Assembly (NCBI GenBank): GCA_024225395.1
Contig: JAAEMR010000061.1
Location: forward strand, 1 to 55,809
Direction of reading: 5' to 3'
Source of the DNA: Gammaproteobacteria bacterium
Lineage (GTDB): Bacteria; Pseudomonadota; Gammaproteobacteria; GCA-001735895
DNA length: 55,809 nucleotides
Shown here: piece after piece, positions 4,570 to 41,243 of the stretch
Position numbering within the stretch: the first letter of the stretch is position 1
How the letters are laid out: each line of letters begins with the position of its first letter
Made by a program: the position numbers and the translations under genes
The notes under the pieces: generated by a model
Database searches by the model: none
Seen by the model: only the letters and a program-made list of their open reading frames with translations
Told to the model about the DNA's origin: nothing

Positions 4570-5193
4570 ATGGCACAGTTTTTTGAAATTCACCCTCAAA
4601 ATCCTCAGAAGCGACTCATCCAGCAGGCAGTTAAAATTATTGACCAGGGAGGTTTAATTGTTTATCCCACGGATTCAAGTTATGCACTGGGATGCCATAT
4701 CGGGGATAAAAATGCGATGGAGCGAATTCAGCGATTGCGTAAGCTGGATAATAAACATCACTTTACCCTGGTCTGTAGTGATTTATCTGAAATAGGAACC
4801 TATGCAAAAGTTGATAATTCATCATATCGTTTGATGAAGACTTTGACGCCCGGTCCCTATACGTTCTTATTAAAAGCGACATCTGAAGTTCCCCGGCGCC
4901 TGATGCACCCGAAACGTAAAACGATTGGTGTTCGTGTTCCCGACAATATTATTACCCATTCAATTCTGGATGAGTTAGGGCAGCCCATTATGAGTAGTAC
5001 GCTGATTTCAGCTGGAGAAAAAGATGCACTGGATGATGCCGAAGAAATTCGTGATAAATATCAGCATGCAGTCGACCTTGTAATCGATGGGGGTTCATGC
5101 GGCGTAGAGCCAACGACTGTTATTAACCTCATCGATGGAAACCCGGAAGTATTACGCTTTGGCAAAGGTAATGCCGAGTTTCTGGATTATTAG
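4570..5193 (+). CDS. yciO: YciO, Sua5/YciO/YrdC family protein
   Basis: This 207-residue protein follows the YciO pattern closely: MAQFFEIHPQNPQKRLIQQA at the start, PTDSSYALGC (about residues 34-43), RRLMHPKRKTIGVRVPDN and a C-terminal PTTVINLIDG. The family fold binds ATP and RNA. The relatives TsaC/Sua5 make threonylcarbamoyl-AMP for tRNA t6A. YciO itself is a paralogue with an uncertain physiological role, so I do not assign t6A synthesis. It lies upstream of trpS and scpA as in other gammaproteobacteria, separated from trpS by a CACGAAG element. Confidence 0.88.
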   Translation: MAQFFEIHPQNPQKRLIQQAVKIIDQGGLIVYPTDSSYALGCHIGDKNAMERIQRLRKLDNKHHFTLVCSDLSEIGTYAKVDNSSYRLMKTLTPGPYTFLLKATSEVPRRLMHPKRKTIGVRVPDNIITHSILDELGQPIMSSTLISAGEKDALDDAEEIRDKYQHAVDLVIDGGSCGVEPTTVINLIDGNPEVLRFGKGNAEFLDY

Positions 5194-5208
5194 GTATTAA
5201 AAAAATAT

Positions 5209-5361
5209 TTCACCACGAAGTACACGAAGAGCACGAAGGTTTAAAAGGGGTGAATAGCTTGAAGTAAATATTTGCTCAAACAGCAGTATGATGCTGAGCC
5301 TGTTAAAATCTAGCCATATACTTATTTTTACCCTTCGTGTGCTTCGTGCTCTTCGTGGTGA
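5209..5361. repeat. CACGAAG inverted element, copy 5
   Basis: One of the best-formed copies. The left arm (5209-5240) carries three CACGAAG words after TTCACCACGAAG. The right arm (5331-5361) is the matching complement ending CTTCGTGGTGA. The centre of about 90 nt is unrelated to the centres of other copies. Confidence 0.85.
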
Positions 5362-5442
5362 TTCATTTAAATATGTATCCCTTGTCGACCTTTGCGCGTT
5401 ACAATTCTATAATTACACTTCATTTTTCTCAGGAATATCTTT

Positions 5443-6660
5443 TTGAACACCTCAGTTAGTCAAAATCAACGTGTACTGTCAGGTATGCGTCCAACCGGTT
5501 TGTTACATCTTGGTCATTATCATGGTGTTTTAAAAAACTGGATAGAGTTACAGCATAGCTACGAATGTTTCTTCTTCGTTGCTGACTGGCATGCATTAAC
5601 AACTCATTATGAAAATCCATCTATTATTGCCAAGAGTAGTGTAGACCTGGTCATTGACTGGCTTGCAGCAGGTGTAAATCCCGGTAGCTCGACCATTTTT
5701 ATCCAGTCTCGAGTGCCCGAACATGCCGAACTGTTTACGCTGTTATCGATGATTACTCCATTGGGCTGGCTGGAGCGCGTTCCCAGTTATAAAGATCAGC
5801 AGGATAAATTGAAAGACCGTGATTTGAGTACTTTTGGTTTTCTGGGTTACCCACTGCTACAGTCTTCGGATATTCTGATGTATAAAGCGGGCCATGTTCC
5901 TGTCGGTGAAGACCAGGTAGCGCATGTCGAGTTAACCCGTGAAGTCGCTCGTCGCTTTAATCATCTGTATGGTAAAGAAATCGATTTTGAAGAAAAAGCC
6001 CATGTTGCTATCAAAAAGATGGGTAAGAAAAATGCCAAAATTTACAAAAACCTGTTAAAACGTTATCAGGAACAGGGGGATGGCGAGGCGCTTTCTGTGG
6101 GGCACGCATTGATCGATTCCCAGCAAAATATCAGTTTAGGTGATAAAGAGAGACTGGTTGGATACCTGGAAGGTGGCGGTCGAATTATTTTACCGGAACC
6201 CCAGTCTTTATTGACAGCCTCGCCTAAAATGCCCGGGCTGGATGGACAGAAAATGTCTAAATCCTACGGCAATACGATTGCGCTCAGAGAGTCGCCTGAA
6301 CAGATCGAAAAGAAAGTTAAAACCATGCCCACCGATCCTGCCCGTATTCGACGTACTGATGCGGGTGACCCTGATAAATGTCCGGTTTGGCAATTACATC
6401 AGGTTTATTCCAGTGATGACCTGAAAACTGAAGTCGAAGAAGGTTGCAAAACTGCAGGTATTGGCTGTGTCGACTGTAAGCGACATATCATCGATAGTAT
6501 TCTGCTTGAACTTAAACCCATTCAGCAGAGGGCTAAGGATTATCTGGATGATATCTCAACCGTTGAATATCATATCAATGAAGGTTGTGAAGCGGCTCGT
6601 GATGTTGCTCGTGACACGATGGAAGAAGTGCGCAAAGCCATGGGTATTACGCTTAGATAG
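5443..6660 (+). CDS. trpS: Tryptophanyl-tRNA synthetase
   Basis: This class I synthetase (405 residues) charges tRNA-Trp with tryptophan in the cytoplasm. The ATP-binding HIGH signature is HLGH at residues 22-25 and the KMSKS loop is intact at 270-274. The start is TTG at 5443 with AGGAA about 8 nt upstream; no ATG lies nearby in frame. It is longer than the E. coli enzyme (334 residues) because of an insertion around residues 175-245 (KKMGKKNAKIYKNLLKRYQ onward) found in the long TrpS group. A late CKTAGIGCVDCKR segment adds Cys residues. It is followed after 2 nt by scpA, so co-transcription is likely. Confidence 0.95.
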   Translation: MNTSVSQNQRVLSGMRPTGLLHLGHYHGVLKNWIELQHSYECFFFVADWHALTTHYENPSIIAKSSVDLVIDWLAAGVNPGSSTIFIQSRVPEHAELFTLLSMITPLGWLERVPSYKDQQDKLKDRDLSTFGFLGYPLLQSSDILMYKAGHVPVGEDQVAHVELTREVARRFNHLYGKEIDFEEKAHVAIKKMGKKNAKIYKNLLKRYQEQGDGEALSVGHALIDSQQNISLGDKERLVGYLEGGGRIILPEPQSLLTASPKMPGLDGQKMSKSYGNTIALRESPEQIEKKVKTMPTDPARIRRTDAGDPDKCPVWQLHQVYSSDDLKTEVEEGCKTAGIGCVDCKRHIIDSILLELKPIQQRAKDYLDDISTVEYHINEGCEAARDVARDTMEEVRKAMGITLR

Positions 6661-36585: not shown

Positions 36586-37092
36586 ATGAAATGCCCCTTT
36601 TGTGGAATGCCAGATACCAAAGTAGTCGACTCCCGCCTGGCGAATGAATCTAGTCAGGTGCGCCGACGTCGTGAGTGTGTCTCTTGTGAAACCCGCTTTA
36701 CAACCTATGAAGCTCCCCTGTTGAACATGCCGATGGTCATTAAAAATGATGGTAGCAGGGATACCTTTGATGAGCAGCGGGTACGCAGTGGAATGATGCG
36801 GGCGTTGGAAAAGCGCCCCGTATCGATTGAACAAATTGAAAATGCGATGAGCCACATTAAAAAGCAACTGGTCGCACAGGATGCCCGGGAAATAGCTTCG
36901 CGGCGGATTGGAGAGATTGTGATGCGTGAACTGCAAACACTGGATCATGTCGCCTATATTCGTTTTGCATCGGTTTATTTGAGTTTCGAAGACCTGGCTT
37001 CTTTTGAAGAATTGATTAAACGGCTTGAATCAGAGCCAACGCCTGAAATGCAACGTCGCCAGGTCCCTCTTATTGATGATAAGGAAGAGTAG
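36586..37092 (+). CDS. nrdR: NrdR transcriptional repressor of ribonucleotide reductase
   Basis: The 168-residue NrdR has an N-terminal zinc ribbon (CPFCG at 3-7 and CVSCE at 31-35) and an ATP-cone (about 49-139), which senses ATP/dATP and controls ribonucleotide reductase genes through NrdR boxes. MKCPFCGMPDTKVVDSR and RRRRECVSCETRFTTYE match the family. It heads the rib operon as usual; ribD follows after 3 nt. Confidence 0.97.
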   Translation: MKCPFCGMPDTKVVDSRLANESSQVRRRRECVSCETRFTTYEAPLLNMPMVIKNDGSRDTFDEQRVRSGMMRALEKRPVSIEQIENAMSHIKKQLVAQDAREIASRRIGEIVMRELQTLDHVAYIRFASVYLSFEDLASFEELIKRLESEPTPEMQRRQVPLIDDKEE

Positions 37093-37095
37093 ATT

Positions 37096-38220
37096 ATGAA
37101 TAACCCTGCTGGCCATGAATTCTGGATGTCAAAGGCTTTGCAGCAAGCGAGAAAAGGATTTTATTCTACGCATCCTAATCCACGCGTTGGATGTGTGATT
37201 GTGCGGGATGGTGAGCTTTTGTCTGAAGGGTTTCATGAATTTTCCGGCGGCCCTCATGCAGAGGTTAATGCATTGAATAATCTTTATGGCGATGCTCTCG
37301 GAGCAACGGTGTATGTTACTCTTGAGCCCTGTTCGCATACCGGCAAAACACCTCCCTGTGTTGATGCTCTTATCAAGGCTGCACCCGATACAGTTGTGAT
37401 TGCGATGTTAGATCCCAATCCATTGGTGTCAGGGCAGGGTATTGAAAAACTAAAACAGCACGGCATTAATGTTGTCGTCAATGTGCTGGAACAACAGGCT
37501 ATGCAGTTAAATGCCGGGTTCATTAAGCGCATGACTCAACAGCTTCCTTTTGTCAGAGTGAAAATGGGCATGTCTTTAGATGGAGCTACTGCCCTGTCGA
37601 ATGGTTTAAGCCAATGGATTACCGGACCGGAAGCACGTCAGGATGTGCAATATTTAAGGGCGGGAAGTTCAGCTATCCTGAGTACAGTCGCAACTGTATT
37701 GAATGATGATGCCTCGCTGAATGTCAGGCTGAATACCCAACAGCTGAAGCAGCAGGTAGAGGTTCGTCAGCCGGTGCGGGTGATCATTGACAATCATTTA
37801 AAGCTAACAGGTAAGGAAAAACTATTTGAACTAGATGGTGAAATCTGGATTTTTACTACTCAACAGGATGAAGAAGTGCTGTCTCGTTTTAAACCATTAT
37901 ATGAAAATGTATCCATCTTTAACTCTACTTCTACTACAAAAAGAGTCGACCTTAAAAAGTTATTGCAAAAGCTTGCAAAAATGGAAATAAATGAAGTCCA
38001 TACAGAATGTGGTTCTACACTTGCAGGGGCTTTAATACAGCAGCAGCTGGTGGATGAACTGGTGCTTTATATGGCTCCGGATTTAATGGGAAACCAGGCA
38101 CGGGGCTTATTTGATCTGGGTGAAATAAGCATTATGTCGGATAAAATTCAGCTTTCAATCACTGATGTGCGTATGATTGGGCGCGATATCAAAATAGTGG
38201 CAAAACCATGTCAACCGTAG
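37096..38220 (+). CDS. ribD: Riboflavin biosynthesis bifunctional deaminase/reductase RibD
   Basis: RibD performs the second and third steps of riboflavin synthesis: deamination, then reduction of the ribosyl side chain. The N-terminal CDA-type deaminase (about 1-145) has the Zn site HAEVNAL and EPCSHTGKTPPC. The reductase domain (about 150-374) includes KMGMSLDGATAL and THTECGSTLAGALIQ-like sequence (HTECGSTLAGALIQ). The 374 residues fit the family. It overlaps the following Ntn-hydrolase-like gene by 13 nt. Confidence 0.96.
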   Translation: MNNPAGHEFWMSKALQQARKGFYSTHPNPRVGCVIVRDGELLSEGFHEFSGGPHAEVNALNNLYGDALGATVYVTLEPCSHTGKTPPCVDALIKAAPDTVVIAMLDPNPLVSGQGIEKLKQHGINVVVNVLEQQAMQLNAGFIKRMTQQLPFVRVKMGMSLDGATALSNGLSQWITGPEARQDVQYLRAGSSAILSTVATVLNDDASLNVRLNTQQLKQQVEVRQPVRVIIDNHLKLTGKEKLFELDGEIWIFTTQQDEEVLSRFKPLYENVSIFNSTSTTKRVDLKKLLQKLAKMEINEVHTECGSTLAGALIQQQLVDELVLYMAPDLMGNQARGLFDLGEISIMSDKIQLSITDVRMIGRDIKIVAKPCQP

Positions 38221-38780
38221 TTGTTGTAAGAAAAAATAAAACTGCCTGCATTGCGGCAGATAGCCTGACCAGTTTTGGTGATACCAAACAGGCTGCAGAA
38301 TTTATTGTAAATTCAGATAAAATCATACAGTTTGATGATTTTTATATGGGCATAGTGGGTAGTGCAGCGCATCAACTGGTGCTCAAATCACTGTTTAATA
38401 ATCACCCTAATAAAATCGATTTTACAAATCAAATGTCTATTTTTGATAGCTTGAAACAGGTTCACCCGATACTTAAAGAAGAATATTTTCTCAATAGTAA
38501 AGACGAGGATGATGATCCTTATGAGTCTTCCCGTGTTGATTCATTGATTATGACATCCAACGGTATTTATGGTTTGTATTCGTTACGGGAAGTTGATGAG
38601 TATACGCAATACTGGGCAGTAGGATCCGGTGCTGAATATGCATTGGGTGCCATGTTTTCAGTGTACGATCAGCTGGACTCAGCTGAACTTATTGCAAAAG
38701 CAGGTGTTGAAGCGGGAGCCAAGTTTGATAATGCATCAGATTTGCCCATGACTTCTTTCACGGTTGAATTAACACTCTAA
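38208..38780 (+). CDS. HslV/proteasome-beta-like Ntn hydrolase with N-terminal Ser
   Basis: A 190-residue protein of the proteasome-beta superfamily. After Met removal the chain starts STVVVVRKNKTACIAADSLT and aligns without gaps to the HslV start: residue 1 (catalytic Thr) is Ser, Asp17 is conserved, and a Lys at position 37 in NSDKII corresponds to HslV Lys33 after a four-residue insertion. GSGAEYALGAM matches the GSG segment that follows in HslV. It could be related to the stand-alone bacterial proteasome homologues (Anbu, BPH). An alternative is that Thr2 becomes the nucleophile after further trimming. It sits between ribD and ribE with a 13-nt overlap, an unusual place. No HslU or other unfoldase gene is in the window. 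Confidence 0.75.
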   Translation: MSTVVVVRKNKTACIAADSLTSFGDTKQAAEFIVNSDKIIQFDDFYMGIVGSAAHQLVLKSLFNNHPNKIDFTNQMSIFDSLKQVHPILKEEYFLNSKDEDDDPYESSRVDSLIMTSNGIYGLYSLREVDEYTQYWAVGSGAEYALGAMFSVYDQLDSAELIAKAGVEAGAKFDNASDLPMTSFTVELTL

Positions 38781-38795
38781 AGAGTAATAACGATT

Positions 38796-39449
38796 ATGTT
38801 TACAGGTATCATTCAGGCCATCGGCTATATTCAAAAACTTGAACAAAAAGGCGGCGATGTTCGCCTGACATTAAATACTGGAGATCTGCAATTATCCGGG
38901 TCTGATTTGGGTGATAGTATTGCGGTGAATGGCGTTTGCCTGACTGCTGTTGAATATACTGACAATGGATTCGTTGCCGATGTTTCCGGTGAAACACTGG
39001 AAACTACCAGCCTTGGCTTCCTCAAACAGGGCAGTCCGGTTAACCTGGAAAAGGCGTTAACCTTGAATACTGCACTAGGTGGCCATATTGTAAGCGGTCA
39101 TGTTGATGGTCTTGGCACTTTAGTCAGTCAGCGTAATGAGGGCCGATCGATCCGGTATGAGTTTTCGGTGCCACAAAAGTTTGCGCATTACATAGCAGAA
39201 AAAGGTTCTGTGACCATTGATGGCACCAGTTTGACGGTCAATCATGTTGATGGTAATCATTTCGGGGTCAATATTGTGCCCCATACCCGGGATAATACGG
39301 TTTTTAAAAATTATGAAATCAATACACAGGTCAACATAGAAGTTGATATAATCGCCCGTTATCTTGAGCGCCTGTTGACCGGTCAATCGGCAGCACAGGG
39401 CGACAGTCAACTGTTGAACACATTATCCGAATCCGGATTTATTAAGTAA
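38796..39449 (+). CDS. ribE: Riboflavin synthase alpha subunit
   Basis: Two tandem lumazine-binding domains (about 1-90 and 98-190) dismutate 6,7-dimethyl-8-ribityllumazine to riboflavin. The 217 residues carry MFTGIIQAIG, the paired ISGHVDG-like motif (IVSGHVDGLG), SIAVNGVCLTAV and VTIDGTSLTVN, all typical. The genes ribB(A) and ribH follow. Confidence 0.96.
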   Translation: MFTGIIQAIGYIQKLEQKGGDVRLTLNTGDLQLSGSDLGDSIAVNGVCLTAVEYTDNGFVADVSGETLETTSLGFLKQGSPVNLEKALTLNTALGGHIVSGHVDGLGTLVSQRNEGRSIRYEFSVPQKFAHYIAEKGSVTIDGTSLTVNHVDGNHFGVNIVPHTRDNTVFKNYEINTQVNIEVDIIARYLERLLTGQSAAQGDSQLLNTLSESGFIK

Positions 39450-39480: not shown

Positions 39481-40593
39481 ATGGCATTAAATACCACTGA
39501 AGAAATTATAGAAGATATCAAAGCCGGAAAAATGGTCGTCATTATGGATGATGAAGACCGTGAAAATGAAGGTGACCTACTGATGGCCGCTGAAGCGGTA
39601 AAGCCGGATGATATTAACTTCATGGCTCGTTATGGACGGGGTTTAATCTGTTTAACCTTGTCCCAGCAACGTTGTCATCAATTACGCCTGCCATTAATGG
39701 TGGGTGATAATACGGCTGCGCTGGAAACTAACTTCACTGTATCTATTGAAGCTGCTGAAGGTGTTACTACCGGTATTTCTGCAGCTGATCGTGCAGTAAC
39801 CGTCCAGGCTGCTGTTAAAGGTGATGCAGTTCCACAAGATCTGGTTCAACCCGGGCATATCTTTCCATTAATGGCTAAACCGGGTGGAGTATTGACCCGT
39901 GCAGGACATACCGAAGCAGGATGTGATCTGGCGCGTCTGGCGGGGTATGAATCAGCGGCTGTTATCGTAGAAATACTGAATGAAGATGGCAGTATGGCCA
40001 GGCGCGAAGACCTGAAAGCTTTTGCTAAAGAGCATCAACTTAAAATGGGGACTATTGAAGATTTGATTCGATATCGCATTGAGAATGAAAAAACACTCGA
40101 GCGTATCGTTGAAACCAATTTTCCTACTGACTATGGTGATTTCAAGTTACTGGCTTATGAAGATGCGATCGACCAGGAACTACATCTGGCGATTGTCAAA
40201 GGTACTATTAATTCTGATGAGCCGGTTCCTGTTCGGGTGCATGTTCAAAATACGTTGCACGATTCTTTATGTGGTACGACAGGCAGAGGCTGGCCTTTAC
40301 AGGATGTAATGCAAAAAATCGATGGAATGGGTAATGGGGTCATTGTTTTCCTTAGACAATCTGAAACTCCAAGGCAGATGGTGTTGAATATTGAGACCAT
40401 AATGCGCGGGGAAGAGCATGAAGAGCATGAAAAGCATGATGACGCTCATGCCGAAGATTTAAGAACATTCGGAATCGGCGCTCAAATTCTGGCTGATCTG
40501 GGTATTCATAAAATGAAATTACTCAGTGCACCGAAGAAATTTCACGCACTGGCGGGTTTCGGGCTTGAAGTTGTCGAGTACATTTCAGATTAA
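39481..40593 (+). CDS. ribBA: 3,4-dihydroxy-2-butanone-4-phosphate synthase with degenerate GTP cyclohydrolase II-like domain
   Basis: The N-terminal domain (about 1-200) is a full DHBP synthase, with DDEDRENEGDL at 23-33 and HTEAGCDLARLAGY. It makes the four-carbon unit of riboflavin from ribulose 5-phosphate. The second domain (about 205-370) has the GCHII scaffold but only one Cys (LCGTTGRG) where the C-x10-C-x-C zinc site should be. GTP cyclohydrolase activity is therefore unlikely and a separate ribA should exist. An acidic/His insertion EEHEEHEKHDDAHAEDL lies about 310-328. 370 residues. Confidence 0.92.
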   Translation: MALNTTEEIIEDIKAGKMVVIMDDEDRENEGDLLMAAEAVKPDDINFMARYGRGLICLTLSQQRCHQLRLPLMVGDNTAALETNFTVSIEAAEGVTTGISAADRAVTVQAAVKGDAVPQDLVQPGHIFPLMAKPGGVLTRAGHTEAGCDLARLAGYESAAVIVEILNEDGSMARREDLKAFAKEHQLKMGTIEDLIRYRIENEKTLERIVETNFPTDYGDFKLLAYEDAIDQELHLAIVKGTINSDEPVPVRVHVQNTLHDSLCGTTGRGWPLQDVMQKIDGMGNGVIVFLRQSETPRQMVLNIETIMRGEEHEEHEKHDDAHAEDLRTFGIGAQILADLGIHKMKLLSAPKKFHALAGFGLEVVEYISD

Positions 40594-40769: not shown

Positions 40770-41243
40770 ATGAGTGAAATACAAAATATTAACGGTGATA
40801 TCACTGTAAGCAATGCCAAAATTGCCATTGTCGTTGGTCGTTTTAACGGATTTATCGTCGATAGTCTGCTGTCAGGTGCCATCGATACATTAACTCGTTC
40901 AGGTATTAGCGCGGAAGATATCACGGTAAGTCATGTACCTGGTGCTTTTGAAATGCCTTTAGTCATTCAGCAATATGCTGCAAAAGGTCAGTTCGCCGCG
41001 ATTATTGGTCTGGGTGCGGTTATCCGCGGTTCAACGCCTCATTTTGATTTTGTAGCCGGCGAAAATGCCAAAGCACTGGCTGGACTGGCTCTAAAATATA
41101 ATTTGCCCGTAATTAATGGTGTTTTGACTACTGACACTATCGAACAGGCCATAGAGCGTGCTGGAACCAAAGCCGGTAACAAAGGTGCTGAAGCAGCCAT
41201 GGCTGCAATGGAAATGATTAGCCTGTTACAAAAGATCGGATAA
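40770..41243 (+). CDS. ribH: 6,7-dimethyl-8-ribityllumazine synthase
   Basis: This enzyme (157 residues) condenses the pyrimidine and the four-carbon unit, forming capsids of 60 subunits or smaller oligomers. Signatures: [44 protein letters not shown] and [26 protein letters not shown] element separates it from ribB(A) and nusB follows after 9 nt. Confidence 0.96.

Follow-up and report, generated by a model that had tools for sequence, protein, structure and literature searches.

A proteasome homologue of the BPH family with a predicted serine nucleophile, encoded between ribD and ribE in Gammaproteobacteria

The window analysed here, a stretch of 55,809 nucleotides from a gammaproteobacterial genome, carries between ribD and ribE an open reading frame that encodes a BPH (Betaproteobacteria proteasome homologue), an assignment based on its sequence, its predicted fold and its catalytic residues. 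Fuchs et al. (2017, PMC5777263) name three prevailing genomic contexts of BPH, with argG, pyruvate dehydrogenase or hsp33; the arrangement seen here recurs within the class and adds a fourth. The gene and its neighbours are located as follows.

36586..37092, + strand: nrdR, first gene of the cluster (Pfam)
37096..38220, + strand: ribD, upstream neighbour, overlapping the BPH gene by 13 nt (Pfam)
38208..38780, + strand: BPH (proteasome homologue) gene, Ser-1 type; 190 aa, ATG start, intact
38796..39449, + strand: ribE (riboflavin synthase), downstream neighbour (Pfam)
39481..40593, + strand: ribBA (Pfam)
40770..41243, + strand: ribH (Pfam)

Identity and active site of the encoded protein

Judged from a sequence similarity well above chance, the reading frame at 38208-38780 is a real gene for a protein of the proteasome family (Ntn hydrolases). 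It is under purifying selection, with a dN/dS of 0.025-0.11 against the close relatives for which dS could be computed, a rough range as dS was near saturation. The match to the Pfam Proteasome family (E 2.7e-4) fell just under the family cut-off; phosphoribulokinase, the other Pfam candidate, was rejected with an E value of 0.031, below cut-off. When solved structures (PDB) were searched, the best matches were the BPHs of Cupriavidus (5ovu, E 3.6e-45) and Thiobacillus (5ovs, E 4.1e-39), HslV coming next with an E value of about 1. A profile built from 20 sequences gave 7.5e-65 and 1.4e-56 for the BPHs against 1e-5 for HslV, and in both the sequence and the profile searches the full-length similarity to BPH exceeded that to any other proteasome family. 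The phage peptidase HslV profile phrog_1040 (PHROG) matched at E 6.4e-16, much more weakly than BPH.

The fold was predicted with AlphaFold2 (pLDDT 82.9, loop 97-107 unsure) and compared by Foldseek. The six best matches were all BPH chains, with TM scores of 0.88/0.91 for 5ovs_A and 0.84/0.86 for 5ovu_A, against about 0.7 for HslV. Profile search and structure prediction, the checks proposed in a preliminary description made from the sequence alone, thus both place the protein in the proteasome family with BPH first. That description had called it an HslV-like, proteasome-type Ntn hydrolase. The Pfam and PDB matches bear out the fold family; 'HslV-like' can be made more precise, as the best match is BPH and the NCBIfam HslV models reached only 23.3 bits, far below their cut-offs of 157.75 and 137.

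The translation opens Met-Ser-Thr, so that serine becomes residue 1 once the methionine is removed. This residue, already singled out as the predicted nucleophile, aligns with residue 1 of the solved BPHs. Conservation was scored over 94 relatives which are by definition the Ser-1 group, that is, the rib-operon clade and a few members outside the operon.

38211..38213, + strand: codon of the predicted nucleophile Ser1 (mature numbering), aligned with residue 1 of 5ovs and 5ovu
38259..38261, + strand: codon of Asp17, an Asp in 93/94 clade members
38319..38321, + strand: codon of Lys37 (equivalent to proteasome Lys33), invariant (94/94) and also present in 16/16 Thr-type copies
38499..38516, + strand: acidic pore loop KDEDDD, typical of BPH, recognised in the sequence (loop described in PMC5777263)

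The whole BPH catalytic set is kept, namely Ser1, Asp17, Lys37, Gly50 and Ser139 (Thiobacillus BPH positions, mature numbering), with a GSG motif at mature positions 138-140. The ungapped alignment to the HslV N-terminus first described holds for Asp17, the GSG segment and the presence of a Lys33 equivalent; it is not fully ungapped up to the lysine, because this equivalent is mature Lys37, as in the BPH of Thiobacillus denitrificans. Gly50 is invariant in the 94 relatives. At position 139, where the solved BPHs have a serine hydrogen-bonded to residue 1, 83/94 have Ser and 11/94 have Ala, and position 173 is Asn in some members and Asp in others; some Ser-1 copies may therefore differ in catalysis. 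The pore loop contains DEDDD in the window, and carries 6.3 acidic residues on average in the Ser-1 clade.

Conservation of the riboflavin operon context

In the window the gene order is nrdR-ribD-BPH-ribE-ribBA-ribH-nusB-thiL. Pfam confirmed the neighbours, and with them the embedding in a riboflavin operon that had been noticed at first sight. The coordinates likewise agree with the 13-nt overlap and the place ahead of ribE already described: the 5' end of the BPH frame overlaps ribD up to its stop at 38220, and 15 nt separate its end from the ribE ATG at 38796. An Rfam search of the window for riboswitch control gave tRNAs only, and a search for an internal promoter ahead of the BPH gene found 12 promoter-like sites, not above the 10.7 found in shuffled sequences.

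A survey of rib operons had been suggested from the window alone. We searched an even sample of 370 genomes from the class (Gammaproteobacteria) and obtained a BPH match in 45. The gene stands immediately between an upstream ribD and a downstream ribE in 29 of these 45, the junctions often showing an overlap or a spacer of a few bases; going by the group codes of the sample, the copies so placed come from at least 13 families of the class. Four further copies are linked to rib genes or nrdR: in one the contig ends before ribE, another is frameshifted and two keep only nrdR upstream. Nine matches are located elsewhere, and three are weak matches left outside the context count. The frameshifted copy (L123, 2523-3100, genome G211) lies in a rib operon as three frame pieces within a one-contig genome, and may be a pseudogene or reflect sequencing errors. 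In a sample of 397 genomes from the phylum, all 13 BPH matches belonged to the same class.

Residue 1 is Ser in every rib-operon copy with a readable start, and the 16 distinct Thr-1 copies all have contexts other than a rib operon. Two of the latter stand beside Hsp33 (L100) and a pyruvate dehydrogenase subunit (L101), neighbours recognised by eye from translations that match published BPH contexts. In two loci, whose genes were also named by eye from translations, the order is nrdR-BPH-ndk-rlmN (L129) and nrdR-ribD-BPH-rlmN (L024); here the link of BPH to nrdR outlasts that to ribE.

The persistence of a Ser-1 BPH between ribD and ribE across many families seems to be unreported. The word 'riboflavin' is absent from the main text of PMC5777263 and from a 2021 survey of proteasome homologues (PMC8665760), and a literature search combining BPH with the rib operon returned nothing relevant; Valas and Bourne 2008 may mention it.

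Losses, transfer and the origin of Ser-1

Within the family of the window, several in-place losses of the BPH gene have left ribD and ribE intact. In relatives without it, the two genes are joined by TAATG, TGATG, TGAATG or 13 nt. Two members of the family (L135 and L136) have a 95-nt remnant between ribD and ribE, at about 2598-2694, that still encodes the BPH start. Having retained the opening codons while the remainder is deleted, these remnants look like decay caught in progress.

Conversely, BPH persists in L129 and L130, where ribD no longer follows nrdR. Two Desulfobacterales records (L025 and L034) carry at 5001-5564 a Ser-1 BPH with a TTG or GTG start and without rib neighbours, which may reflect horizontal transfer or mis-binned contigs; in one of them the gene lies beside one resembling kdsB.

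In the phylogeny, a moderately supported branch (68/82) sets the rib-operon Ser-1 group apart, and its support was 93 in a quick tree that used a distantly related HslV as outgroup. The AU test rejected a single origin of all Ser-1 BPHs (p 2.9e-6), so that residue 1 has changed on more than one occasion; some caution is needed, as the stray Ser-1 sequences are on long branches. Among these, two copies outside the rib context (L119 and L121) group with the Thr types.

Possible function and relation to known proteasome homologues

BPH was reportedly first described by Valas and Bourne in 2008. Although its structure has been available since 2017, we know of no substrate or function for it.

The solved BPH is a 14-mer double ring that binds epoxomicin and MG132 and has no unfoldase, and published tests of a role in clearing carbonylated protein were negative (PMC5777263). 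By analogy with these structures, the product of the window's gene is likely an ATP-independent compartmentalised peptidase, in keeping with the self-compartmentalised peptidase proposed at first. Removal of Met would expose Ser1 without a propeptide, subunits would assemble into a double heptameric ring with the active sites inside (e.g. 5ovs), and Ser1, activated through Lys37 and Asp17, would cut peptides without an unfoldase. The rib operon would supply steady, housekeeping expression, and the substrate would be general, such as proteins that are damaged or have unfolded, and not an enzyme of riboflavin synthesis. We regard this reading as a whole, a Ser-1 ring peptidase steadily expressed from the rib operon and acting on a general substrate, as quite probable.

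Peptidase activity of any BPH is a prediction, inhibitor binding apart, because the purified Thr-type BPHs were inert on all standard substrates (PMC5777263). This result, and the reported lower efficiency of Ser-1 than Thr-1 in the 20S proteasome (PMC5777263), would fit a Ser-1 protein that is catalytically weak or non-proteolytic, whether an amidase, a connectase-like ligase or a scaffold. We consider that unlikely, as the invariance of Lys37 and Gly50 and the near invariance of Asp17 in the clade are unexpected for a dead enzyme.

The adjacency of ribD, BPH and ribE over at least 13 families exceeds what housekeeping expression needs, and so leaves room for a link to flavin synthesis. BPH could act on riboflavin biosynthesis, for instance as a peptidase in the quality control of RibD or RibE; the tight junctions, and the 13-nt overlap in the window, would fit a translational coupling that ties its amount to ribD. 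That role is rather improbable, since relatives in the same family lost the gene with the operon intact, the nrdR-BPH-ndk-rlmN locus and the two Desulfobacterales records keep BPH without these neighbours, and Thr-type relatives stand beside pyruvate dehydrogenase or hsp33 (our survey; PMC5777263). To judge from the losses in place, riboflavin synthesis can do without BPH, and these losses together with the copies lacking rib neighbours argue against a role that the pathway requires. A substrate specific to the rib pathway is unlikely, and the earlier suggestion that the protein processes a rib enzyme is not supported. It is similarly improbable that the Ser-1 clade is tied functionally to flavin synthesis, with a serine-type ring that evolved together with its site between ribD and ribE and that regulates or shields the riboflavin pathway, or flavoproteins, in many members of the Gammaproteobacteria.

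That the frame is a second HslV working with HslU is very improbable: the NCBIfam HslV models do match, weakly, but far below their cut-offs (137 and 158 bits), BPH has reportedly lost the residues that contact HslU (PMC5777263), Pfam found rib genes and no hslU beside the BPH gene, and the genome has its own hslV, above the HslV cut-off, side by side with hslU on another contig (C20).

The protein is a BPH subunit of the Ser-1 type. It is ordinary as a protein, and its modest interest lies in the conserved, seemingly unreported context: the Ser-1 branch has a conserved operon and close relatives have lost the gene naturally, which offers a comparative and genetic handle on BPH. HslV (ClpQ) shares the fold family and the N-terminal nucleophile with it at about 18% identity, but has a short pore loop and a 6-fold ring and needs HslU. 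The kind of protein and its serine nucleophile are not new: Ser-1 is reported in all BPHs outside Betaproteobacteria, in subfamilies with the same residue 1 and an otherwise standard active site (PMC5777263). The BPHs of Thiobacillus denitrificans (5ovs, 5ovt) and Cupriavidus metallidurans (5ovu) match over the full length with ~40-44% identity (structural alignment) and have in common with it the fold, Asp17, Lys37, Gly50 and Ser139, the acidic pore loop and the absence of a propeptide. Residue 1 is Thr in both of them and Ser in the window, and their operons contain argG or pyruvate dehydrogenase, whereas the gene described here lies between ribD and ribE.
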